From contig JALCST010000005.1 in NCBI GenBank assembly GCA_022653675.1, positions 62,001-126,000 on the forward strand: 64,000 bases of DNA. Direction: 5' to 3'. The notes under the pieces are model-generated. The model was given only the letters and a program-made list of their open reading frames with translations. It ran no database searches and had not been told where the DNA came from. Shown piece by piece: positions 20,871 through 35,784 of this stretch; position 1 is the stretch's first letter; each line of letters begins with the position of its first letter. A program made the translations under genes and the position numbers. This DNA comes from Bacteroidales bacterium (GTDB taxonomy: Bacteria > Bacteroidota > Bacteroidia > Bacteroidales > UBA932).

Positions 20871-23366
20871 TTATTCCGGGGTGTCCCCCCCATCTTCATC
20901 ACTTTTCGGAACGACGCAAACGGCAGCGATTTCATCCCCTTCGCGAAGGCTGATAAGTTTTACTCCCTGTGTAGCCCTTCCAGCTACCCTGATGCTCTCA
21001 ACCGGCATTCTTATCGTTATACCGCTCTTGTTTATTATCATGAGGTCATCGTTGTCCGAAACTGCTTTGACTGCAATAAGCGAGCCGGTTTTTTCAGTTA
21101 TGTTCAACGTTTTCACTCCCTTTCCGCCACGGTTCGTAATACGGTAGTCGTCTAATACGGAACGTTTCCCGAACCCGTTCGAACTGACCACAAGAACTGT
21201 TTTCGCTGCATCTGCATCTTCGTCGGGAGCAATGCACACCATTCCGACAACTTCGTCTCCATTGTCCAGATAAATACCCCGGACGCCGGTGGCAGTACGG
21301 CCGATGGAACGGACCTTGTCCTCCGGGAAACGGCATAGCTTGCCGGCTTTCCCGCAGGCGATGAGAATATGCGAATTGCCGTCCGTCAGGCAGGCATCCA
21401 CCATGGCATCGCCTTCGACTATATTTATGGCATTCACACCCTTCTGACGCGGGCGGGAATACATTTCGAGCACGGTCTTTTTCACTATGCCTCTCTTGGT
21501 GGCAAGAATGATATAATGGGAATTTATGAATTCCTTGTCATCGAGATCCCGGACATTCAAATATGTCTGGACCTTATCTCCCTGTTCTATCTGGATCACG
21601 TTCTGGATGGCGCGTCCCTTTGAAGCCTTGGTGCCTTCCGGAATATTGTATACCTTAAGCCAGTAACATTTGCCGAAACTTGTAAAGAAAAGCATGGTGG
21701 AGTGCATGTTCGCCACATATATCCGCTCGATGAAATCTTCCTCCCTGGTAGTTGATCCCTTCGATCCTATACCGCCCCTGTTCTGGCTGCGGTACTCGCT
21801 CAACGAAGTACGTTTTATGTAACCCATGTGGGAAATGGTTATCACCACATCCTCGTCGGGATAAAAGCTGTCGGCATCCATTTCGTCAGGGGAAATTTCG
21901 ATCGCGGTGCGGCGCGCATCCCCGAAATCGTTTACAAGCTGCCTTGTCTCCTTCTTTACGATCTCCATCTGCCTTTCGGTATGTGCTAGAATATCTTCCA
22001 AGTCGGCTATCAGTTTGGTCAGGTCATCGTACTCCTGCTGCAGCTTTTCCCGCTCGAGTCCAGTCAGGGCGCGGAGTTTCATCTCTACTATAGCATCGGC
22101 CTGGGCGCTGGAAAAATCCCATTTTGACATAAGCCCGTCGTGGGCCTCCTGTACCGTCCGTGAAGCACGTATGAGAGCTATTATCTCGTCTATTATGTCT
22201 ATCGCCTTGAGAAGCCCGGCCAGGATATGCTGGCGTTTAAGGGCTTTGTTGAGATTGAATCGCGTACGGCGTACCACTACGTTGTGACGGTGCCGTACAA
22301 AATATTTTATGAGGTCCTTGAGGTTAAGGAGGCGTGGACGGCCATCTACGAGTGCGATGTTGTTGACTGAAAATGCGGATTCGAGATCCGTCATCTTATA
22401 GAGATTGTTCAGCAGTACATTGCTGTTGGCTCCCATCTTCAGCTTGATGACAATGCGCATGCCCTTTCTGTCGCTTTCGTCGTTTATGTAGGATATGCCT
22501 TCTATCTTCTTGTTGTTGACAAGATCGGCTATCTTTTCGATAAGTTCCCTCTTGTTGACCATATAAGGTATCTCCGTAACGACAATGGTCTCACGACCAC
22601 TGTCGGAGACTTCGATCTCCGTCTTCGAACGCACTACGATCCTTCCCCTGCCGGTTTCGAAGGCATCGCGAATTCCTCCGATTCCCTGTATTATCCCGCC
22701 TGTCGGGAAATCTGGTCCCTTTATGTACTTCTCCATCAACTCGCCGACAGTGATCTCCGGATTATCGATATAGGCGCAAATGGCATTCCCGACTTCGGTA
22801 AGGTTGTGTGGAGCCATGTTCGTGGCCATTCCCACGGCAATACCCGACGCTCCGTTCAACAAAAGAAGCGGAGCCTTTGCCGGAAGGACTTCAGGCTCCT
22901 GAAGGGATTCGTCGAAATTGGGAACGAAATCCACCGTATCCTTGTCTAGATCCTCCAGAACCGTTTCAGCCAATTTGTTAAGTTTAGCCTCGGTATAACG
23001 CATGGCGGCGACGGGGTCCCCGTCTACCGAGCCGAAATTACCCTGGCCCTGTACGAGAGGATAACGCATCACCCATCCCTGGGCAAGGCGCGCCATCGCA
23101 TCATATACGCTGGAATCGCCGTGAGGATGATATTTGCCCAATACCTCCCCCACTATACGCGCCGATTTCTTGGTAGCCGAATTGGATGTCACTCCAAGCT
23201 GGTCCATTCCATAAAGTACTCTTCTGTGGACCGGCTTTAGCCCATCCCGCACATCCGGCAGCGCTCGCGAAACGATTACCGACATCGAATAGTCGATGTA
23301 GGCGCTCTGCATTTCCTGTTCTATGTTAATAGGTATGATCTTACCTATATTCTTCTCAAAATCCAT
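20871..23366 (-). CDS. gyrA: DNA gyrase subunit A
   Basis: 831 aa type IIA topoisomerase subunit that cuts and religates DNA. Catalytic Tyr124 sits in [10 protein letters not shown]. The quinolone-resistance region reads [10 protein letters not shown]: Ser85 and Asp89 correspond to E. coli Ser83 and Asp87, so the usual resistance changes are absent. The C-terminal beta-pinwheel carries the GyrA box QNRGGIG, which separates gyrase from topoisomerase IV ParC. The tail is acidic (SDEDGG). It is divergent from clpC. No clear promoter box was found in the 131-base gap on this strand. Confidence 0.98.
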
Positions 23367-23497: not shown

Positions 23498-26071
23498 ATG
23501 ACTCAAGCTCCAGAATGGATAAAAAATATACTCGAAACGGCGGCGAACGAAGCCGCAAGTCTCGGTAATGCAGAAATAACTCCTGACCATCTTTTCCTGG
23601 CAATAGTGGAGAACTGGATGAACGAGGCCTGCGAGACGTTGGAGGCTAATGGAATAGACTGCCAGGTAATAAAGAGGGAAATGGAAGATAAGATGAGAAG
23701 CGGAAGCGCCATCTCCCAGAAAGACATGTCGAGAATCAAACCGCTCAGTTCCCTCGGAACCGTCATAGGCGAGATGCTCAACCAAGCGAGGATTCTAGAC
23801 GAAGAGACGAATCCCATGCATCTTTTGCTTGCCATACTTCTTGCAAACGACAACATAACAAGCTCAACCCTTAGGGAAAAGGACAATCTCGATTACGGCA
23901 GACTCCTCGCAATGTGGAAAAAAGCCAAGAAAAAGAGCGTTACAAGTACTTTCGAAGGGGAATCCGCCCAAGACCAGGATTTCCATGAAGACGAAAACGG
24001 GACTCAAAATCAGGGCGGGCACCAAGGGGCAAAAAAAGAGAATTCCTCCACTCCCAATCTTGACAAATATGGCTATGATCTTACAAAGGCCGCACGCGCA
24101 GAAAAACTGGATCCGGTCGTCGGCCGCGAAACTGAAATTGAGAGACTGTCCCAGATTCTGGGAAGGAGAAGGAAGAACAGTCCTATACTTATAGGCGAAG
24201 CCGGGGTAGGAAAATCCGCAATCGCCGAAGGACTTGCCATCAGGATTGCTGAAAAACAGGTACCAAGGGCGTTGCTGAACAAACGCATCGTAACCTTGGA
24301 TATCGGTTCCCTGGTAGCCGGGACTCAATATCGCGGTCAATTCGAAGAGAGGGTGAAACAGGTTCTCGAAGAAATCAAACATAATCCTGACGTCATAATT
24401 TTCATTGACGAATTGCATACGCTTGTTGGAGCCGGAGGGGCACCCGGTTCGCTCGATGCAGCAGACATGCTCAAGCCGGCACTCGCCCGCGGAGAAATCC
24501 AGTGCATTGGAGCCACCACTACCGACGAATTCCGCAAGATAATAGAGAAAGACAGAGCGCTGGAACGCAGATTTCAGAAGATAATGGTGTTTCCGACCAC
24601 ATTCGAACAGACTCTGGCAATATTGCAAACCATCAAGGGAAGATACGAAAAGCACCACAACGTGAAATACTCCCCTGCTGCGATTACGGCATGCATAACG
24701 CTTTCACAGAGATATATAACTGACAGAAGCCTGCCTGACAAGGCTATAGACGTGCTTGACGAAGTCGGATCGAGGGTACACCTGAGGTTCTCCAACTTTC
24801 CTCCACAATTGAGGAAATACAACGTCAAGATCGAGAAAATCAGGGAGGCGAAACGTGAAGCCGCCACCGACGGCGACTTCGAAAGGGCGGCTTCTTTGAA
24901 AGCCGACGAGGACGCCATCGCAAAACGCAGGGACAAAGAGATGGAAGAGTGGTCCTCGAAAAGCGACAGCAAACCCCATGAAGTGACCGAAGAGGATGTG
25001 GCACAGGTAATTTCGGAAATGACCAACATACTGGTCAGTAAGATTGCAGCAAGCGAAAGCGACAAACTGATAAATATGGCCGCAAACCTGAAGAAACGAA
25101 TCATCGGGCAGGATGATGCCGTGGATAATGTTGTAAGAGCAATACATCGGAACCGGGCGGGGCTGAACGATCCTGGCAAACCCATCGGGACATTCCTGTT
25201 TCTAGGTCCGACGGGCGTCGGCAAGACCCAGCTGGCTAAAGTCCTCGCTGAATACATGTTCGATTCGGCCGACAACCTAATCAGGATAGACATGAGCGAA
25301 TACATGGAAAGGATAGCCATAACAAGGCTTACCGGTGCGCCTCCGGGATATGTTGGATACGATGAAGGAGGGCAGCTCAGTGAGGCAGTAAGACGCAAGC
25401 CTTACTCCGTTGTGCTTCTCGACGAAATCGAGAAGGCGCATTCGGACGTTTTCAATCTGTTGCTGCAGGTTCTGGACGAGGGAAGGCTGACTGACGCGAA
25501 CGGGAACCTGATAGATTTCAGGAACACCATACTTATAATGACCTCAAACGTAGGGTCGATGGAACTGAAGGATTTCGGGGAGGGACTCGGATTCGCGACG
25601 CCGTCGCAGAACAGGAATGCCGACAGGAACGCAATCATCAACAAGGCATTGAAACGGAAATTCGCTCCGGAATTCCTGAACAGGCTTGACGGAATCGTTA
25701 TTTTCAATTCGCTGACCCGCGAGAACATAATGAAGATAGTGGATATCGAACTCGCCGATTTGTTCAGTAGAGTGTCAGCTCTCGGTTACAATCTTCAGAT
25801 CCCTAAGGAAGTCAAACAATTTCTTACCGACGTCGGTTTCGATCCACGATACGGTGCACGTCCATTGAAACGTGCCATACAGCACTATATCGAAGATCCT
25901 CTTGCTGAATTCATTATATCGCCCGAAAAGAACTCTTCCAGGAACCTTCGTATCGTCCTTACCGACGATGCGAAGGACACCGCAGTAGAAACGTTTAATA
26001 CTCAGGAACCTAAACGCACCAATATTTCTAAGGTTCCCAAGGCCAGGACAGCTAAACAGAATATTTCCTAA
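23498..26071 (+). CDS. clpC: ATP-dependent Clp protease ATPase subunit (ClpC type)
   Basis: 857 aa Hsp100 unfoldase that feeds proteins to ClpP. Seen in order: two N-terminal Clp repeats (residues about 5-145), a variable acidic linker, AAA module D1 with [13 protein letters not shown], a middle domain containing a UVR-like stretch ([13 protein letters not shown]), AAA module D2 with [12 protein letters not shown], and the C-terminal D2-small domain ([13 protein letters not shown]). The UVR-like middle region places it with ClpC rather than ClpA or ClpB. No ClpS or McsAB partner is nearby. Its last 20 bases overlap the end of queH, which runs the other way. Confidence 0.95.
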
Positions 26072-26663
26072 GGCGCTCCTCACTGTTCCTGAAAGACATT
26101 TCGCAACCGCAGTATTTCTGCATATAGAAGTTCTTCTCGCGGCAGATTTGCGAACGGCGTTCCGTAAGCCCTCCCTTTCGCCAGTCCTTGTCCCAGAAAA
26201 TCACTCCTCCGACCTGGGTTTCGGCATAATGGCCGGCATCATTCACCTGTTCGAGCGATTTCCAGCGCGAGGTGGCCATGGTCGTTGCAAAAACTTTCAA
26301 TCCGAGTTCGAGAGTCTTCTTTGCGGCCACGAGCAGACGGTGCTTGAAACAGATCAGGCAACGTTCGCCACGCTCGGGCAAATCCTCGTAACCCCTGACG
26401 AGTTCCCTCCAGTTTTCATGGTCATAGTCGCCGTCGATGAATTTCACTCCCATATCCTTGCAGAACCTGATCTCTTCACGCTTGCGTTTTTCGTATTCTT
26501 CAAGCGGCCAGATATTCGGATTGTAATAAAACACGGTCGGTGCGATCCCGTTGTTAAGAAGGCATTCCACCACAGCCCCGGAGCACGGGGCACAACAAGA
26601 CTGCAAAAGGATTTCCTTCACACCTTCAGGAGGTTCAAGCACTATTTCAGAGACATCAGCCAT
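26052..26663 (-). CDS. queH: Epoxyqueuosine reductase QueH
   Basis: 203 aa from ATG 26663. QueH (former DUF208) performs the last step of queuosine synthesis, reducing epoxyqueuosine in tRNA, as a non-homologous alternative to QueG. Seen: the CCAPC cysteine motif near the N-terminus (QSCCAPCSG), a second cysteine pair in ERCLICFKHRL, FATTMATSRWKS, and a C-terminal YCGCEMSFRNS, which provide Fe-S and mechanistic ligands. An upstream ATG at 26693 would fall inside the -7 box, so 26663 is preferred. The 3' end overlaps that of clpC by 20 bases. Confidence 0.93.
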   Translation of the reverse strand: MADVSEIVLEPPEGVKEILLQSCCAPCSGAVVECLLNNGIAPTVFYYNPNIWPLEEYEKRKREEIRFCKDMGVKFIDGDYDHENWRELVRGYEDLPERGERCLICFKHRLLVAAKKTLELGLKVFATTMATSRWKSLEQVNDAGHYAETQVGGVIFWDKDWRKGGLTERRSQICREKNFYMQKYCGCEMSFRNSEERLRKYSV

Positions 26664-26690
26664 GATTCGGATACATTTATCTAAGGATTC

Positions 26691-26698
26691 CAAAGATA
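26691..26698 (-). promoter_or_regulatory. Promoter -7 box of queH
   Basis: On the minus strand TATCTTTG fits TAnnTTTG, 27 bases before the ATG at 26663. It decides the start: the alternative ATG at 26693 lies inside it. Confidence 0.6.
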
Positions 26699-28463: not shown

Positions 28464-29828
28464 TTACCGGATTTTCCGTTTGATTTCCTTCACATCGGCG
28501 GCCAATACGAACGATGCCAGCACGAAAGCCATGCCGTCGGCAATGGGACCGGCCCACAGGACGCCGGTTATGCCCATGAATTTCGGCAGGATCAATACCA
28601 GCGGGATCAGAAAAACGATCTGTCGCGACAGTGAAAGGACCATCGCCTGGCCAGGCTTTTTCACCGCCTGGACGAAGATGCTGGCGACCGTCTGTACGCC
28701 ATCGGGGATGCATAACAGGAGGAAAATACGCAAGCTCATGACTGCAAATTCATTATACAAATCACTCTCGGCACCGAACAGCCTGACTATGCTCATTGGA
28801 GCGAACTGGAAAACACAAAACGCTATTGCGGAAGCCACCAATGCGGACTTGATGCATATCTTCAATGCTTCCAGGACACGTCCGTAATTTTTAGCCCCGT
28901 AATTGAAGCTTATTGCAGGCTGCGCCCCGGTCGCGATACCGACGACGACGAACAGGAATATCTGGTTTACTTTCAACGTGATCCCCATTACCGCCAAGGG
29001 AATGTCTGTTCCATACTTGGAAGCGCCACCGTACCTGGTGAGCGTATTGTTTATGAAAGCCGTCATTACGACGGTGGTCATCTGGTTTATGAAACTTGCG
29101 ATACCGAGCGGCAGCATCTCCTTCAACACCGCACCGTTCAATTTGTAGTCCTTCCTTTCTAGTTTGACCGAACGCCATCTGCGCATATACGAAATGGAAA
29201 TGACGAAAGAGAGGAACTGACCTATTATGGTGGCTATCGCAGCTCCCCTTACCCCCCATTTCAATACGAAAATGAATACGGGGTCGGCGACCGTATTGAA
29301 AACTGCACCGGCGACCAGGGAGGCCATCGCGAGTTTCGGGCTTCCGTCGGCACGGATCATGGAATTGAGGGCCGTAGCTATTATGACGAATGGAAATCCG
29401 ATCATCACTATGCTGCCATACCCGAGTGCATAAGGTTCCACCGTCTTGGTGCACCCGAAAAGGTAGGCGATCGGTTTAAGAAAAAAAACCGTCATAAGGA
29501 ACAATACCGCCGATACCATTACCGACAGTGTTATACCGTTCCCCACCCCCTGGTCGGCAGCCACTGGGTCACCCTCCCCGAGCTTCAGATTCATGTACGT
29601 AGCCGATGCGTCGCCTATCAGAACCCCGAAGGCTACGCAAAGGACCGTCAAAGGAAAGATCACGTTCGTGGCGCTGTTCCCGAGATATCCCACGCCATGT
29701 CCGATGAATATTTGGTCTACGATATTATATAATCCATTTACTACTAGCGATATGACGCATGGTACGGCATATTTTCCAATCAGCCTGCCTATCGGTGCCG
29801 TCGCAAGGGAATTATCAGAATTGTTCAC
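28464..29828 (-). CDS. MATE family efflux transporter (second of two)
   Basis: 454 aa with twelve predicted helices in two halves: first IGKYAVPCVISLVVNGLYNIVDQIFIG with the usual NIVDQ signature, then a second-half repeat starting LPLGIASFINQMTTVVMTAFINN. The C-terminus LAADVKEIKRKIR is cytoplasmic. It is clearly a different paralogue from the MATE protein at 12768-14159. It diverges from the AraC-type regulator across a 74-base gap, the usual layout for a regulator and its target pump. No good -7 box was found on this strand. Confidence 0.94.
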   Translation of the reverse strand: MNNSDNSLATAPIGRLIGKYAVPCVISLVVNGLYNIVDQIFIGHGVGYLGNSATNVIFPLTVLCVAFGVLIGDASATYMNLKLGEGDPVAADQGVGNGITLSVMVSAVLFLMTVFFLKPIAYLFGCTKTVEPYALGYGSIVMIGFPFVIIATALNSMIRADGSPKLAMASLVAGAVFNTVADPVFIFVLKWGVRGAAIATIIGQFLSFVISISYMRRWRSVKLERKDYKLNGAVLKEMLPLGIASFINQMTTVVMTAFINNTLTRYGGASKYGTDIPLAVMGITLKVNQIFLFVVVGIATGAQPAISFNYGAKNYGRVLEALKICIKSALVASAIAFCVFQFAPMSIVRLFGAESDLYNEFAVMSLRIFLLLCIPDGVQTVASIFVQAVKKPGQAMVLSLSRQIVFLIPLVLILPKFMGITGVLWAGPIADGMAFVLASFVLAADVKEIKRKIR

Positions 29829-29902
29829 TATTTATCCTCAAAATTGAAATTGGGTGCAAAATTCCCAAAATATCAGCCGGCACACCGACCTCATGCGTGC
29901 AA

Positions 29903-30751
29903 ATGATGACCATATGCGAACTTTTTGATACCTTTACGCGTTATACTTTGGAAGTGTTTGACAATTATATAGTTGATAATCTTAACTTATCCGATGCGCA
30001 GTACCGTCCCGCCCATGGATTGACGTTCATGCTGATCGTTTCGGGATTCGGGACAATACGTACAAAGGAAAGGGATTATGGCTTGAAGAAAGGAACGCTC
30101 GTTTCCATCGCTCCGTTCCAGACCTATGCCTTCAAGGAATGGTCAGAAGACTTGAAATATTGGCGCATGACTTTCGAACTCGATTTCATGGCCGGTTTTC
30201 CTCTCGTACTCGAAACGAACGTAGCCGAAAAGATGGAAAGGGAACCTTGCCTGCTCCCCGACAGGAAAACTTTCGGTTTGCTCAAAAGGTACCACAAGGA
30301 GATATCCGAACAATACGAAAGGATAGGGCATCCTTCCCGGATCGAAATAGTCAAGGCGCTGCTTTACATATATATGGCGGAAGTAAGCCGCCTTTATTCG
30401 CAGCGGACAGTCGCACTGAACACGTCGCATGAGGAACAGGTTGCCGGAGATTTCCTGAAATTGCTGCACACATATTACCGCAGCGAACGGAAACCGGAAT
30501 TTTACGCCGGCAAATTATGCGTCTCCCCGCGTTACCTGTCGAGACTGCTTAAGAAAAGTACCGGACGAACACTCTTCACATGGATTTGCGAATTCGTAGT
30601 CAAAGAGGCCAAGATCATGTTGAGTTCCACCGACAAGAGCGTTTCCCAAATATCGGACGAACTTAATTTTCCGAATCCCTCCTACTTTTCCCGCTATTTC
30701 AGGAAATACACCGGAACCAGCCCGCTTAAATACAAAAAACATCTGAAATGA
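29903..30751 (+). CDS. AraC family transcriptional regulator
   Basis: 282 aa from the ATG at 29903 (a second ATG follows at once). Upstream in-frame ATGs lie inside the divergent MATE gene and are rejected. The N-terminal half is a cupin-like effector domain (HGLTFMLIVSGFGTIRTKERDYGLKKGTLVSIAPFQ). The C-terminal 100 residues have the two AraC helix-turn-helices: SPRYLSRLLKKSTGRT and VSQISDELNFPNPSYFSRYFRKYTGTSPLKYK. It could control the divergent MATE pump, or the lipoprotein genes downstream: its stop overlaps the next start by 4 bases (ATGA). Confidence 0.93.
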   Translation: MMTICELFDTFTRYTLEVFDNYIVDNLNLSDAQYRPAHGLTFMLIVSGFGTIRTKERDYGLKKGTLVSIAPFQTYAFKEWSEDLKYWRMTFELDFMAGFPLVLETNVAEKMEREPCLLPDRKTFGLLKRYHKEISEQYERIGHPSRIEIVKALLYIYMAEVSRLYSQRTVALNTSHEEQVAGDFLKLLHTYYRSERKPEFYAGKLCVSPRYLSRLLKKSTGRTLFTWICEFVVKEAKIMLSSTDKSVSQISDELNFPNPSYFSRYFRKYTGTSPLKYKKHLK

Positions 30752-31335
30752 AAAGAAACCTGAATCTGACAATCGCCATCGCCGTTTGCATGATATTGAC
30801 AAGCTGCGGCACGGGCAGGATATTAACCACTGAAAGGAAACCTGACGAAGCGATAATCATAGCCAAGGTTCGAATCGAGAACGGGGATTCGTACATAGGC
30901 AACAAATGGAATTTACTTCTCGACGAACGCCTTTGGGGAAAAATGGCCGTCTGGCCTGATGAGAACAATTACATTTACATGAAGGTCCCGGTAGGGAAGC
31001 ATTTCATAGCACTGCTGCAATATAAGGCATTGCATAAGAACATTCCGGAAAATTATCTTACTTTTGAGACTGACACGAGTGCCGTCTATTATATCGGAGA
31101 CATCGTCATACACTGGAAAATAAATTCCGAAACGGACGAAAACAGGTCAGGAAGGAATGCGAAAGTTGGAGGAGCCGTAGGAGGGGTATTCGGGGCGGTA
31201 TCGAATTCCAAGGAACCGGGAACCCGTCTGGATGTGGACGTAACCGACAATTACGACGAAACTACGGCATATTTCAAATCAAGATTCGGCTATGACCAGG
31301 AAATAAGGAAATCCCTATTAAAAGTAAATAAATAG
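30748..31335 (+). CDS. Hypothetical lipoprotein coupled to the AraC regulator
   Basis: 195 aa. Lipoprotein signal with MILTSC (Cys19 or so) and GTG after it. The mature protein looks like a beta-rich domain (residues 35-125) with a PEGA-like feature: MKVPVGKHFIALLQY, where Gly and the alternating strand suit a sugar- or protein-binding beta sandwich. Then a Gly-rich stretch KVGGAVGGVFGAVSN, which could cross or touch a membrane, and a charged C-terminus. No exact family recognised. The start overlaps the AraC stop by 4 bases and the next lipoprotein follows after 8 bases, so the three genes are one unit. Confidence 0.85.
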   Translation: MKRNLNLTIAIAVCMILTSCGTGRILTTERKPDEAIIIAKVRIENGDSYIGNKWNLLLDERLWGKMAVWPDENNYIYMKVPVGKHFIALLQYKALHKNIPENYLTFETDTSAVYYIGDIVIHWKINSETDENRSGRNAKVGGAVGGVFGAVSNSKEPGTRLDVDVTDNYDETTAYFKSRFGYDQEIRKSLLKVNK

Positions 31336-31343
31336 AAAGCGAG

Positions 31344-32666
31344 ATGAAAAAAGTCGGGAAAATCCTGATAGTATTGATTGCAGTCTCATTATTCGGCTGC
31401 AATACCAATCCGCAAAAGAACGGCGAAGTAGAAACGGATAAAAACCAAATCGAAAATTACGGGAAGGTATTCAAAAGCCTGAAAAAATACCTGGCGAAAG
31501 AAAACGGCAAACTGTGGGGGGAACAACTTTACGGGCCGATATTGCTGGTCGACAAAAATGACAGGAAGATCTTTGCGAACGAACCGGACAGCATGGGCCT
31601 GTTGACGAAAAAAGGGAGAATTTACGTCGGACTGTTGCCAAAGGAGATGAATATCGCAAATACGGCCACGGAATGGAACGGCAAGCGATGGACTATGGTC
31701 ATGCTTCCCTTGCCGGAAGACCGCAACGAAAGGTTGAACCTGCTTACACACGAGCTGTTTCACAGGATACAACCGGAACTCGGATTCGACAAATTCGGCA
31801 GCACCTCCGGTAACAACCTGGATGCGATGGACGGACGGATTTACTTGAAGCTGGAGCTGGAAGCCCTGAAAAAGGCCTTGGAATCCGGAGATGAGGGGGT
31901 TGCGAGGAACAATATCCGGAATGCGTTGTCATTCAGAATTTACAGGGACAGCCTTTATCCCGGGGAAAAAACCGCGGAAAACGCGCTGGAATTGAACGAA
32001 GGGCTGGCGGAATATACCGGTTCCATTTTGAGCGGCAGGAACGATGAGATGCTTAAAGAGCATTATATCAAGTCAATTGACAATTTTTACCATAACCGGA
32101 CTTTCGTACGGTCATTCGCCTATGTCACGATTCCCTCATACGGATATTTCATGAACAAGGAAAATCCGAACTGGAACAGGGAGATATCGGATACGACGGA
32201 CCTCACCGATTACATGACAGGTTTCTTTCACGTATCCGTACCTGCCGGCTTCAAGGATTCCATCGATCGGATTAAGATGGAATACGGCTTCGACACGATA
32301 GCGAAAATCGAGAATGAAAGGGCCGAAGCCAGAAAGAAACTTATGAAAAAATACGAGGACAGGTTTCAGGGACATCCCACACTGACCCTCAACCTTCAAA
32401 ATATGGGCATACAGTTCGATCCCAGGAACATAATGCCGTTCAAGGATGCAGGCACCATATATCCGAACATGAGAGTCACAGACGACTGGGGAATACTTTC
32501 CGTAAACGACGGCGCCCTGCTGAGCAAGCATTGGGACAAGGTTACCGTTTCCGAACCTACCATGATCACGGACACCGTCGTAAACGGAAGCGGCTGGAAA
32601 CTGGAATTGAATAAAGGATGGGAAGTGATCCGGAGCAGTAAAAATTACATTTTGAAGAAAAAATAA
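31344..32666 (+). CDS. Putative zinc metallopeptidase lipoprotein (HExxH, gluzincin-like)
   Basis: 440 aa. Lipoprotein signal with LFGC near residue 19. Seen: His136-Glu137-Leu-Phe-His140 within LLTHELFHRIQ, a HExxH zinc site with catalytic Glu137, and Asn-Glu219-Gly-Leu-Ala-Glu-Tyr 79 residues later, which has the form NEGLAEY of gluzincin third ligands. The C-terminal 80 residues (about 355-440) are beta-rich and end with IIRSSKNYILKK-like strands. I do not recognise a named family. Role on the envelope, protease or amidase, is inferred. The gap to the preceding lipoprotein is 8 bases and to the AlkD-like gene 35 bases. Confidence 0.85.
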   Translation: MKKVGKILIVLIAVSLFGCNTNPQKNGEVETDKNQIENYGKVFKSLKKYLAKENGKLWGEQLYGPILLVDKNDRKIFANEPDSMGLLTKKGRIYVGLLPKEMNIANTATEWNGKRWTMVMLPLPEDRNERLNLLTHELFHRIQPELGFDKFGSTSGNNLDAMDGRIYLKLELEALKKALESGDEGVARNNIRNALSFRIYRDSLYPGEKTAENALELNEGLAEYTGSILSGRNDEMLKEHYIKSIDNFYHNRTFVRSFAYVTIPSYGYFMNKENPNWNREISDTTDLTDYMTGFFHVSVPAGFKDSIDRIKMEYGFDTIAKIENERAEARKKLMKKYEDRFQGHPTLTLNLQNMGIQFDPRNIMPFKDAGTIYPNMRVTDDWGILSVNDGALLSKHWDKVTVSEPTMITDTVVNGSGWKLELNKGWEVIRSSKNYILKKK

Positions 32667-32701
32667 GGACTGCATGCCGAATACGAAGTAACATACGAGG
32701 A

Positions 32702-33478
32702 ATGGACTGGACCGACGACACATACGCTTCTTATGTGAAAAGACTCAGGAGCAACATCTCATGGCACGACGCCCATGACGCGAACATGCACAGGAGGATC
32801 ATCGCAACCTCGAAGGAGGTGATCGGGGTCGGCAATCCCGTCCTGCGGCAAATTGCCAGGGAGATACGCAAGGGAACAGTACGGGACCGCGCGGCCGATC
32901 CGGAAGGATTCCTGAGGGCTTGCATAAGGAACAATGGATTCGGGACTTACGAGGAGACATTAGTCTACGGACTGGTATGCTCGGGAATAAAGGACTTCGG
33001 CGAATACTCGGCAGCCATAGATCCATTCCTCGGCGCAGCAGACACATGGGCGGAAATCGACGTGACGGTCGGGGATTCGACTCTTTTCAGGAACCTCACC
33101 CCGGAAATGGAGGAGTGGACATTTTCGCTTCTACGCGATGACGGGGAACCTTTCAGGATCCGTTTCGGCATCATTTTGCTGATGAAATATTTCCGTACGG
33201 AGAAGTATCTCGGGAGAGTGCTCGACGCCTGCTCCGGCGTTTCCAAGGAGAGCTATTACGTGCGCATTGCGGTCGCGTGGCTATTGGCGGAATATCTTTT
33301 GCCGTTCCCGGACGCCATCTATGCCTACCTGAAAGAAGACGTCGCAGGGAATCCGCATCTCGACCGGTGGACTCACAACAAGGCCATCCAGAAGGCATGC
33401 GAAAGTTTTCGTGTTCCCGATGAAATGAAAACGGCTCTCAGGAAACTGAAAATAAAGAATGAAAATGGCCGTGCGTGA
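32702..33478 (+). CDS. DNA alkylation repair protein, AlkD-like HEAT-repeat family
   Basis: 258 aa, all helical, with the layout of the AlkC/AlkD family: an N-terminal YVKRLRSNISWHDAHD, GVGNPVLRQIAREIRK, and a run of HEAT-like repeats around TYEETLVYGLVCSGIKDF and FRIRFGIILLMKYF. AlkD removes bulky or cationic alkyl bases without flipping them. The eukaryote-like and Bacteroidota members are divergent, and activity here is not proved by any single residue I can assign. It overlaps the next gene by 20 bases, indicating coupled translation. Confidence 0.9.
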   Translation: MDWTDDTYASYVKRLRSNISWHDAHDANMHRRIIATSKEVIGVGNPVLRQIAREIRKGTVRDRAADPEGFLRACIRNNGFGTYEETLVYGLVCSGIKDFGEYSAAIDPFLGAADTWAEIDVTVGDSTLFRNLTPEMEEWTFSLLRDDGEPFRIRFGIILLMKYFRTEKYLGRVLDACSGVSKESYYVRIAVAWLLAEYLLPFPDAIYAYLKEDVAGNPHLDRWTHNKAIQKACESFRVPDEMKTALRKLKIKNENGRA

Positions 33479-34283
33479 ATTCACAAGGGAATTCGAAGGC
33501 TTCGCCGCCGCTCTCGGCGTACGGAATGGGAAGGATGGGGCGGACTACGTCTTCCCCGATTTCGCCCTGCGTGTGACGCCGGTGACATTGGAACAGGCAG
33601 GGAATATGGGTTTCATACTGCATCTGATCGATGCGGAAGTCGGGACAGAGCATCGCATCCTGCTTTATGAAGACAGGTGGCTCGGGGATGAAAGCGGGGC
33701 ATTGAAGAAAAGGCTCGCCGCCTGTCTCGGAAAATTCCGCAGCGTTTTCGCGCGCAAATGCGCCGTCTCGCGCACGGACATCCTGACCGCCAATGCTTTC
33801 CTCGACAAATGCCACAGTTACGGGGCTGCCTCTGCAAAATACAAATATTCGTTGACCTTCGACGGCGAACTCGTCGCCGTCGCCACTTTTTCCGGAAAGA
33901 AGAGACTTCCTTCCATGGACCACTCCTACCCTGGGACGAAGATCTCCTGCGAATGGATACGATATGCCTCTCTGCCGGATGTCAGGGTATCCGGAGGAAT
34001 GGGGAAAATGCTCAAGGCCTTCATGAAAGACGTAGACCCGGAAGAGGTCCTCTCATATTCCGACAACGAATGGTCAAAGGGAGAGGTTTACGGAAAACTC
34101 GGGTTCACGCGCATGTTCCGGACTCCTCCGCAGGAATATTACGTAAATAAAAAGACATACGGACGCATTTCGGCTATAAAGGTCGGCCGCGACAACCTTT
34201 ATAAGGGGAGAGAATTCCCTTCATCGGATTATTGGCGCATCTACAACGCCGGATCCACCCGCTGGTTTCTGGAAAAAACTTAG
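33459..34283 (+). CDS. Phage-type GNAT-like protein of unknown function
   Basis: 274 aa. The first 90 residues are a nuclease- or DNA-binding-like region of no clear family (FTREFEGFAAALGVRNGKDG). Residues 100-250 show the pattern of GNAT-like proteins common in phages: a strand-strand core YSLTFDGELVAVATFSGKK, then SCEWIRYASLPDVRVSGGMGKML and LSYSDNEWSKGEVYGKLGFTR, ending with YYVNKKTYG. Known: phages encode many such proteins, including DNA-modifying relatives (Mom). Whether this one acetylates or modifies DNA is unknown. It is tightly coupled to the AlkD-like gene (20-base overlap), which hints at joint work on DNA. Start ambiguity: ATG at 33465 is also possible. Confidence 0.75.
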   Translation: MKMAVREFTREFEGFAAALGVRNGKDGADYVFPDFALRVTPVTLEQAGNMGFILHLIDAEVGTEHRILLYEDRWLGDESGALKKRLAACLGKFRSVFARKCAVSRTDILTANAFLDKCHSYGAASAKYKYSLTFDGELVAVATFSGKKRLPSMDHSYPGTKISCEWIRYASLPDVRVSGGMGKMLKAFMKDVDPEEVLSYSDNEWSKGEVYGKLGFTRMFRTPPQEYYVNKKTYGRISAIKVGRDNLYKGREFPSSDYWRIYNAGSTRWFLEKT

Positions 34284-34321
34284 AAAAACAGGCCGGAAAA
34301 ATTCGTTTTTAAAAAAAGTGT

Positions 34322-34329
34322 TATATTTG
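34322..34329 (+). promoter_or_regulatory. Promoter -7 box of the metY-metX-thrA-asd operon
   Basis: TATATTTG fits TAnnTTTG. The -33 box is poor. It lies 177 bases before the metY start, far more than the 17-48 bases seen for most other genes here, so the message carries a long leader. Confidence 0.6.
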
Positions 34330-34506
34330 CGGCAATGAAAGAGAAGAGACATATAGTGGATATGCGAATGCATCTTTAAGATGCATCCCAAATTCATTTC
34401 GAAAGTCTCGCCGCAATCGGCGGATCTTCCAAACAAATTCCAATAAATCAAAGAACAATCACCCTGCACGGCCATCATTGCGTGCAGCCATCAAACAAAT
34501 AATATC
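34330..34506 (+). promoter_or_regulatory. Structured leader in front of metY
   Basis: About 175 bases between the -7 box and metY, free of large ORFs. Seen: hairpin 1 at 34368-34386 (ATGCATC-TTTAA-GATGCAT), hairpin 2 at 34409-34422 (CGCCG-CAAT-CGGCG), hairpin 3 at 34464-34487 (CTGCACG, 10-base loop, CGTGCAG). A GAGAC (34346-34350) could also pair with GTCTC (34405-34409). No T run follows hairpin 3, so transcription termination is not obvious. It does not match the SAM-I or SAM-II patterns I know. Control by methionine, S-adenosylmethionine or threonine is an inference from the genes downstream. Confidence 0.55.
34335..34379 (+). other. Possible leader peptide ORF in the metY leader
   Basis: ATG at 34335 opens a 14-codon frame (MKEKRHIVDMRMHL) ending in TAA inside the loop of hairpin 1. 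Two Met codons lie just before the stop, at the base of the hairpin, the geometry of an attenuator. However, the ATG is only a few bases from the likely transcription start and there are just two Met codons, so it may be chance. Confidence 0.25.
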
Positions 34507-35784
34507 ATGTCCGGAAAACTCCATTTCGACACCCTGCAGGTCCATGCAGGGAGATCAAAGGACCAGAGCAACGGTCCTTGCGTGACCCCGATCTACCAAA
34601 CCGCATCATTCCTGTTCGACGACGTGTCGCAGGCGGCGGATATCTTCGCATTGAAAAGGGACGGAAACACGTATACGCGCCTTTCAAATCCGACAACCGA
34701 AACTTTGGAACGCAGAATCGCGGCACTCGAAGGAGGGACGGCCGGCACTGCGGTAGCCAGCGGCAATTCGTCGCAGTTCATAACGTTCCAGCAGATATGC
34801 CGTCCGGGGGACCATATCGTAGCTTGCAAGTCGCTTTACGGCGGCACGTTCAATCTCTTGAACCAGACATTCAAACAGCTGGGAGTGGACTGTACCTTCG
34901 TGGAAGGTTCGCCGGAAAGCTTCGAAAAGGCGTTGCGCCCGGACACCAAGGCGTGCTATGTCGAAACTATAGGAAATTCGGATTTCTTCGTTCCTGACTT
35001 CGACGCCATATCCGGGATCTGCTCGAAAGCCGGAATCCCTCTTATAGTGGACAACACCTTCGGAGGCGGAGGATATCTTTTCCGGCCGGCCGAACACGGC
35101 GCGAACGTAGTGACCGATTCCCTGACCAAATGGATCGGGGGACACGGCACCAGCATAGGAGGCATCCTGACAGATGCCGGCAACTTCGACTGGGGAAACG
35201 GCAAATTCCCGCAGATAGACAGTCCGTGCGAATCCGCACACGGGCTTAACTTCTGGAGAAAATACGGGGACAGGGCTTTTGCGGTCATGGCGAAGGAGAT
35301 CGGGGTCAGGGACTGGGGCTGCTGCATAAGCCCGTTCAACGCCTTCCTCATTCTCGAAGGCGTGGAAACATTGTCGTTGAGGATGCAGCGTGAAATGGAC
35401 AATGCGATGGAACTTGCGGAATGGCTCGAAAAAATACCTAAGGTGGAATCAGTAAACTATCCGGGCCTTGACCGGCATCCGAGCCACACTACCGCAGAAA
35501 AATATTTCAGGAACGGATTCGGGGCGGTGATGAGCATCACGCTCAAGGGAAACAGGGAGCAAACCGCAGGCTTCGTAAACCGGCTGCAACTGATTTCGCA
35601 CCTTGCCAACGTAGGCGACAACAGGACCCTGGTCATACAACCGGCCGCAACGACCCATGCACAACTGGACGGAGAAGAGCTGCATGCTGCAGGAATAAGC
35701 GAGGGAACCCTCCGGCTCTCGGTCGGCATCGAAAACATAGAAGACATAAAGGCCGACATCGAACAGTCACTCGAAAAATTGTAG
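34507..35784 (+). CDS. metY: O-acetylhomoserine sulfhydrylase (thiol-lyase)
   Basis: 425 aa, the MetY length, of the Cys/Met-metabolism PLP family. It makes homocysteine directly from O-acetylhomoserine and sulfide. Seen: N-terminus KLHFDTLQVHAG, TYTRLSNPTTETLERRIAALEGG, and the PLP lysine Lys208 in SLTKWIGGHGTSIGG. The C-terminus has HLANVGDNRTLVIQPAATTHAQL, typical of O-acetyl- rather than O-succinyl-homoserine enzymes. It is the first gene of the operon and 3 bases ahead of metX, which makes its substrate. Confidence 0.96.
   Translation: MSGKLHFDTLQVHAGRSKDQSNGPCVTPIYQTASFLFDDVSQAADIFALKRDGNTYTRLSNPTTETLERRIAALEGGTAGTAVASGNSSQFITFQQICRPGDHIVACKSLYGGTFNLLNQTFKQLGVDCTFVEGSPESFEKALRPDTKACYVETIGNSDFFVPDFDAISGICSKAGIPLIVDNTFGGGGYLFRPAEHGANVVTDSLTKWIGGHGTSIGGILTDAGNFDWGNGKFPQIDSPCESAHGLNFWRKYGDRAFAVMAKEIGVRDWGCCISPFNAFLILEGVETLSLRMQREMDNAMELAEWLEKIPKVESVNYPGLDRHPSHTTAEKYFRNGFGAVMSITLKGNREQTAGFVNRLQLISHLANVGDNRTLVIQPAATTHAQLDGEELHAAGISEGTLRLSVGIENIEDIKADIEQSLEKL

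Follow-up and report, generated by a model that had tools for sequence, protein, structure and literature searches.

A chromosomal Bacteroidales protein combining a predicted inactive Vsr/EDxHD-like nuclease domain with a Mom-like GNAT domain

Within the window, by which we mean the whole stretch of 64,000 nucleotides of Bacteroidales DNA that was analysed, a gene encoding a protein of 274 residues overlaps the end of a gene of the AlkD family. The locus raises the question of what this protein is and whether the two genes work together, as was proposed in the first-pass annotation, in which a base modifier was coupled to AlkD as the reader or repair enzyme of its mark. Our preferred reading, to which a probability of roughly 0.5 is given, is that of a domesticated homing endonuclease in which the modification domain has been retained and whose probable target is a base in a nucleic acid. 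The anatomy, kinship and domestication of the protein, taken together, are held with high confidence, and base modification as its activity is offered tentatively. The features to which the text refers are as follows.

20871-23366, minus strand: gyrA, a frequent neighbour of the gene in the family
23498-26071, plus strand: clpC-like gene, a frequent neighbour of the gene in the family, ending 7.4 kb upstream here
32702-33478, plus strand: AlkD-family gene, 258 residues, divergent subfamily (PF08713, DNA_alkylation)
33459-33478, plus strand: 20-base overlap of the AlkD ORF and the GNAT gene (ORF coordinates, counted from the first ATG)
33459-34283, plus strand: the gene, 274 residues, predicted inactivated Vsr/EDxHD-like nuclease domain followed by a Mom-like GNAT domain
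33459-33752, plus strand: N-terminal domain, residues 1-98, predicted folded remnant of a Vsr/I-Bth0305I-type nuclease (model, VIA-align, catalytic columns)
33753-34280, plus strand: C-terminal GNAT domain, residues 99-274, kin of phage Mu Mom (fold and profile matches)
33993-34007, plus strand: GGMGK, residues 179-183, presumed position of the GNAT pyrophosphate-binding loop (alignment; the residues of Mom differ there)
34053-34091, plus strand: SYSDNEWSKGEVY, residues 199-211 (alignment with Mom)

The two domains of the protein

The gene at 33459-34283 on the plus strand is a single uninterrupted ORF with an ATG start and contains both motifs quoted in the first-pass annotation. Reading of the ORFs confirmed both the frame and its 20-base overlap with the AlkD-family gene; a second in-frame ATG at 33465, if used as the start, would give an overlap of 14 bases instead. 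Alignment A1 comprises the window sequence and 40 loci of 39 genomes, two of the loci coming from G043; of the genomes with a match, G026, whose two matches are fragmentary, and G073, which is not of the family, were left out. An AlphaFold2 model of the window protein, built with 41 sequences, had a pLDDT of 94.7 and a pTM of 0.89.

The N-terminal part, modelled alone as residues 1-102, had a pLDDT of 83. Its three best matches in VIA-align were I-Bth0305I (3r3p, Z 8.5 over 84 residues) and two structures of Vsr (1cw0, Z 7.9; 1vsr, Z 7.3), and Foldseek with this domain returned no significant E-value, the best being 0.38. On the model, a Vsr-like nuclease fold is assigned to the domain with moderate confidence, at the Z of 8.5. 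A profile of the nuclease region of the phage relatives matched the solved catalytic domain of I-Bth0305I with an E-value of 8.5e-8. We take I-Bth0305I to be the prototype of the EDxHD enzymes. EDxHD is counted as one of six homing endonuclease families in a published article (PMC6083498). In a joint alignment, T40, T43, Q46, A47 and L56 of the window protein occupy the columns in each of which 11 of 12 phages have, respectively, E, G, W, H and K. The nuclease motif was found in none of 39 family ORFs, none of 77 ORFs of the genome_contigs set, two of three IMG/VR ORFs and all five phage ORFs, where the ORFs were picked by one common pattern that missed 1/40, 3/80, 0/3 and 7/12 loci of these sets in turn and 2/6 of another; the 12 phage sequences were instead judged for the motif by the joint alignment. 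Residues that are kept in this region of the bacterial proteins include the E of 'YEDRW' (37/41) and R99 (41/41). Judged by its sequence, the nuclease half is dead, its catalytic motif being absent.

The C-terminal part was matched by Foldseek to an archaeal N-terminal acetyltransferase (4lx9, E 9.7e-7) at rank 1 of the PDB and to phage Mu Mom (8bv8_A, E 4.0e-6) at rank 3. In VIA-align, whose 50 listed matches cover residues 99-274, the highest scores by Z belonged to protein N-acetyltransferases rather than to Mom (Ard1, 6ag4, Z 14.1 over 139 residues; Naa50 and RimI near 13); Mom (8bv8) had a Z of 12.7 over 169 residues, the longest alignment among the 50 matches listed. The GNAT fold that had been supposed for the protein is thus present in the model by both methods, and its suggested kinship with Mom is borne out by the structure comparison and by profiles: in hhalign, the profile of the 41 bacterial proteins aligned with that of 10 Mom proteins from residue 99 on (probability 96.6, E 6.6e-10), and that of the phage homing endonucleases described below aligned with Mom at a probability of 97.3 and an E-value of 1.9e-11. 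One of the seven phage homing endonucleases scanned passed the Pfam cut-off for Mom (PTm1, 31.7 against 27.1 bits), another matched below it, and four of the 41 bacterial proteins matched weakly at E up to 0.1, the best at 0.009. The window protein itself has no match to Pfam Mom (PF25680) at E up to 1, none over the cut-off to any Pfam family and none to NCBIfam. Weak matches to a Fragile X Tudor domain at residues 175-207 (Pfam, E 0.053) and 172-227 (PDB, E 0.23) were judged to be due to chance.

Thirteen residues are invariant over the 41 sequences (R99, F114, F144, S145, R168, G179, F188, Y200, W205, G208, Y211, F216 and R236), and E165 (38/41), D202 (40/41) and H119 (39/41) are nearly so. 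By the hhalign mapping, the counterparts of the invariant H58, E108, R111, D149, G156 and Y159 of Mom are kept and S146 is present as S or T; within SYSDNEWSKGEVY, it is S199, D202, G208 and Y211 that align with the invariant S146, D149, G156 and Y159 of the Mom alignment. Of the mapped positions of the 10-sequence Mom alignment, Y59, N121, S/T124 and N163 are not kept, and in the window protein S178 and M181 take the place of the invariant N121 and of S/T124, the position that carries the mutation in the 'inactive' Mom of 8bv8. The GGMGK at residues 179-183 stands where we take the pyrophosphate-binding donor loop of GNAT proteins to be. A GG-x-G/S-K/R loop is found here in 40 of the 41 bacterial sequences, the remaining one reading GAMGK, and by its residues it appears closer to the donor loop of an ordinary GNAT than to that of Mom. 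Because N121 and S/T124 of Mom have no counterpart and a GNAT-like loop stands in their place, the protein, although apparently built like Mom, was not filed as Mom. Compared with the DNA adenine modification enzyme of phage Mu (PF25680; 8bv8), it shares the GNAT fold and the H, E, R, S, D, G and Y positions, and differs in the absence of a Pfam Mom match, in the donor-loop residues and in the additional nuclease-derived domain. In six loci (L044, L048, L057, L062, L066 and L070) the proteins have inserts that resemble one another, about 15-20 residues long and placed between two GNAT strands (for example RRATG...E-x-GM).

Phage relatives, distribution and descent

The PHROG matches of the window protein fall on the C-terminal part of the families concerned, namely phrog_3339, annotated 'homing endonuclease' (E 8e-36), phrog_559, annotated 'HNH endonuclease' (E 2e-27), and phrog_29804 (E 4.7e-22). 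Relatives of the gene were found by tblastn in 208 of 50,697 phage records, every one below 60% identity and about 25-38% identical among the 40 of the 208 matches that were listed, and in none of 72,556 plasmid records. In genome_contigs, a relative is encoded in 445 of the 456 stretches matched by pattern (the best 80 of the 445 were used for later counts), and these numbers in phages and contigs are more than chance would give. Searches of IMG/VR yielded three loci with the alignment as query and nothing confirmed with the single protein. Among viral predicted structures, the best match to the model had an E-value of 6.2e-25 and a TMq of 0.78, and the first 20 matches were, where named, endonuclease-like phage proteins; a homing endonuclease of PA5oct stood at rank 8 in BFVD and a Mom protein at rank 28 (E 4.5e-10). 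The first-pass annotation described the core of the protein as of a kind otherwise seen in phages: the kinship with phage proteins holds, and the confinement to phages does not, the closest relatives being chromosomal genes of the same bacterial family, with 47-48% identity over at least 200 residues.

Aligned by hhalign with 12 phage homing endonucleases, the 41-protein profile gave a probability of 100 and an E-value of 4.4e-54 over residues 8-273 of the window protein. The window protein thus has the same two domains in the same order as the Hef-like/EDxHD phage homing endonucleases (phrog_3339, phrog_559), of which those of Campylobacter phage PC5, Klebsiella phage RaK2, Pseudomonas phage Cassandra and Tenacibaculum phage PTm1 are examples; however, it is without their nuclease catalytic motif, lacks their long N-terminal part (274 residues against 441-667 in the 12 phage proteins) and is encoded in the chromosomes of a bacterial family. 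Two articles state that Hef is active as an endonuclease and does not resemble any homing endonuclease known (PMC3322345), and that the Hef of phage U5 cleaves nrdB (PMC2988022). The REase-Mom fusions of jumbo phages, for which modification and restriction in one protein were proposed in PMC7824862, probably belong to the same family as the window protein; that paper also credits PA5oct with five momylating enzymes. In the fusions as described there, the nuclease is predicted to be active and the gene is viral, whereas in the window the motif is gone and the gene belongs to the host. A search of the open-licence literature on homing endonucleases with Mom or GNAT domains gave no chromosomal nuclease-dead form among the matches listed. 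Nuclease-Mom fusions of jumbo phages are already published; by this search, the nuclease-dead chromosomal form is a new variant.

Two settings of the phage genes were recorded in passing. In Campylobacter phage PC5, the gene for the Hef-like endonuclease (L156:1688-3310) sits between two topoisomerase genes, and this setting, taken with the frequent position of the bacterial gene near gyrA, may be a trace of an ancient homing target. The RNA polymerase beta gene of Bacillus phage AR9 is split and contains the relative found in that phage (L160:1179-2663); close by is an endonuclease annotated as 'group I intron VSR'.

The gene was matched in 42 of 99 related genomes, comprising 41 of the 59 genomes of its own family (the window's included) and one of the 40 that belong to other families in the order, in agreement with the first-pass annotation that it is chromosomal. 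Most family genomes have one match; two or three were found in G002, G026, G043 and G044, partly as pieces of one frame. The gene is absent from all three sampled genomes in each of four genera (g8, g13, g15 and g21) and is found in one of three in each of three others (g14, g17 and g19), so that its presence or absence appears to be mostly a matter of genus. Weak tblastn pieces in three genomes without the gene (E 0.001-0.018) lie inside clpC, gyrA or an esterase-like ORF and were judged to be chance matches. In a sample of the phylum the gene occurs in seven of 395 genomes, that of the window and six others of the same class, and the best 80 of the 445 genome_contigs relatives are mostly titled Bacteroidales. 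For 17 pairs of relatives more than 60% identical, dN/dS, where a value could be calculated, was 0.08-0.25 for the one domain and the other alike; the ratios are rough where dS exceeds 1, as it does in many cases. The close relatives thus appear to be under purifying selection, and such values in both domains speak against a decaying relic.

A quick, unrooted tree of 61 rows was calculated, from which L181 was left out as its ORF was not found by the pattern. The 12 phage rows and two of the three IMG/VR rows form one group (SH-aLRT 100), outside which lie 41 family rows and five rows of the class. The family rows are split into a set of 29 and a set of 12, and a starred branch places the smaller set with the phages; with two bacterial sets in an unrooted tree, descent of the bacterial genes from phage genes is the direction that we infer, and the bacterial genes may have one origin or more than one. 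L151, the remaining IMG/VR row, is of the bacterial type and is found at a contig end beside ORFs that by eye resemble miaA and an integrase; it is probably the host chromosomal flank of a provirus.

Of 40 family loci, 15 have clpC or gyrA close to the gene, as do 53 of 80 genome_contigs loci (the best 80 of 445); the two sets share contigs. This recurrent locus, the one match in most family genomes and the apparent purifying selection are patterns that tell against mobility. The window gene would still lie in this frequent neighbourhood, with its orientation flipped relative to clpC and other genes between. A minus-strand ORF at 26052-26693, by eye QueH-like, extends into the end of the clpC-like gene, at the site where many relatives carry the GNAT-nuclease gene. 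A recent arrival from a phage or plasmid was considered and rejected, as the gene is present family-wide, has no plasmid match by tblastn and, together with its AlkD neighbour, has no match to phage DNA by distant blastn.

The AlkD neighbour

The AlkD ORF matches PF08713 (DNA_alkylation) with 29.7 bits against a cut-off of 21, which upholds the AlkD-like identity given to it; the protein is divergent, a solved AlkD being matched by phmmer only at residues 181-213, with an E-value of 0.24. In favour of a functional pair are the 20-base overlap on the same strand and the probable co-transcription of the two genes in the window's genome. On the plus strand, an AraC-like gene, a gene for a lipoprotein-like product of 195 residues, one for a protein of 440 residues with a HELFH motif, the AlkD gene and the GNAT gene follow one another over 29759-34283 with spacings of -20 to 35 bases, and may form a five-gene transcription unit. 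A scan of 32600-34600 gave no promoter-like and two terminator-like sites, numbers also reached in shuffled sequence. The 440-residue protein has no Pfam match at E up to 1, and PADLOC returned nothing at E up to 1 for this protein, AlkD or the GNAT protein, so that a known defence protein was set aside.

Search for the pair in other genomes gave a different picture. PF08713 was found in 41 of the 59 family genomes, in 40 of them over the cut-off, and G034, whose match is below it, was counted as positive in the association test. Both genes occur in 26 genomes, the gene alone in 15, AlkD alone in 15 and neither in three (odds ratio 0.35, p = 0.22), with no positive association. Among the 26 genomes with both, only in that of the window are the two adjacent: in the other 25, the genes are on separate contigs in 23 cases and more than 800 kb apart on one contig in two (G002 and G009), counts in which a rare adjacency could be hidden by contig breaks, many of the family genomes being fragmented. 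The window AlkD used as a query matched in 14 of 99 genomes, its own included, and by tblastn found nothing in the 123 fetched loci, a search by which distant AlkDs would be missed. The window's genus is represented by one genome. With neither recurrent adjacency nor co-occurrence beyond expectation in the genomes sampled, the pair was rejected as a general system and coupling to AlkD as a reader or repair enzyme is considered very improbable. Because the adjacency is confined to the window's genome among those sampled, AlkD is judged a chance neighbour, the overlap seemingly a local accident, which may have followed a rearrangement near the old clpC-gyrA site.

In two genomes without the gene, G033 (L184) and G051 (L185), a single esterase-like ORF separates clpC from a canonical AlkD, which stands near the site that the gene occupies in relatives; the window AlkD does not find these AlkDs at E up to 0.001.

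Possible activities

On the preferred reading, that of a domesticated homing endonuclease, a phage-type enzyme would have become a host chromosomal gene, its Vsr/EDxHD domain losing the catalytic motif yet staying folded and its Mom-like GNAT domain remaining intact. The dead nuclease domain would then most likely help to hold DNA or another nucleic acid, the GNAT domain would bind a donor of the acyl-CoA type and modify a base, and the protein would serve its host as a stand-alone 'orphan' modification enzyme.

The structural matches could also be read as those of an ordinary protein or small-molecule N-acetyltransferase for which phage ancestry is no guide to the substrate: the best VIA-align matches are N-terminal acetyltransferases and other GNATs, and the fold and the GxG-type loop are common to the window protein and to Ard1 and RimI, the loop residues being those in which Mom departs. 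However, sequence profiles tie the protein to Mom and to homing endonucleases that act on DNA, the 41-protein profile matches no PDB chain at E up to 1, and an ordinary acetyltransferase would not need the additional N-terminal, nuclease-derived domain that is here under purifying selection; we regard this explanation as unlikely. Loss of the nuclease motif and the loop residues that are unlike those of Mom would also suit a protein with no enzyme activity, a regulator that binds DNA or RNA or a structural protein made of two retired domains. Against it stand E165, R168, Y200, D202, W205, G208 and Y211, kept at the frequencies given above (41/41 for R168, Y200, W205, G208 and Y211) although the relatives are 25-44% identical to the window protein, a pattern that fits an active site better than a binder, and this explanation is thought somewhat less likely still.

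If domesticated homing endonuclease is the right description and base modification is its activity, gut and rumen Bacteroidales would carry in their chromosomes a Mom-like enzyme for base modification, with consequences for phage resistance, for the cloning of their DNA and for the reading of their methylomes. A more specific and speculative form of this idea, which we regard as unlikely, is that a large group of Bacteroidales has an orphan Mom-type enzyme, derived from a phage protein that both modified and cut, by which adenine or another base in the bacterium's own DNA or RNA receives a bulky mark of the acyl type; such host hypermodification, previously unassigned, would have descended vertically after the cutting half died, by analogy with orphan methyltransferases that outlive their restriction partners. 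Even without that activity, the gene would clearly exemplify the disarming and retention of a selfish phage nuclease, probably for the sake of its second domain. One carrier, Muribaculum sp. An289 (L121), is apparently in culture and offers an organism in which these readings can be tested.
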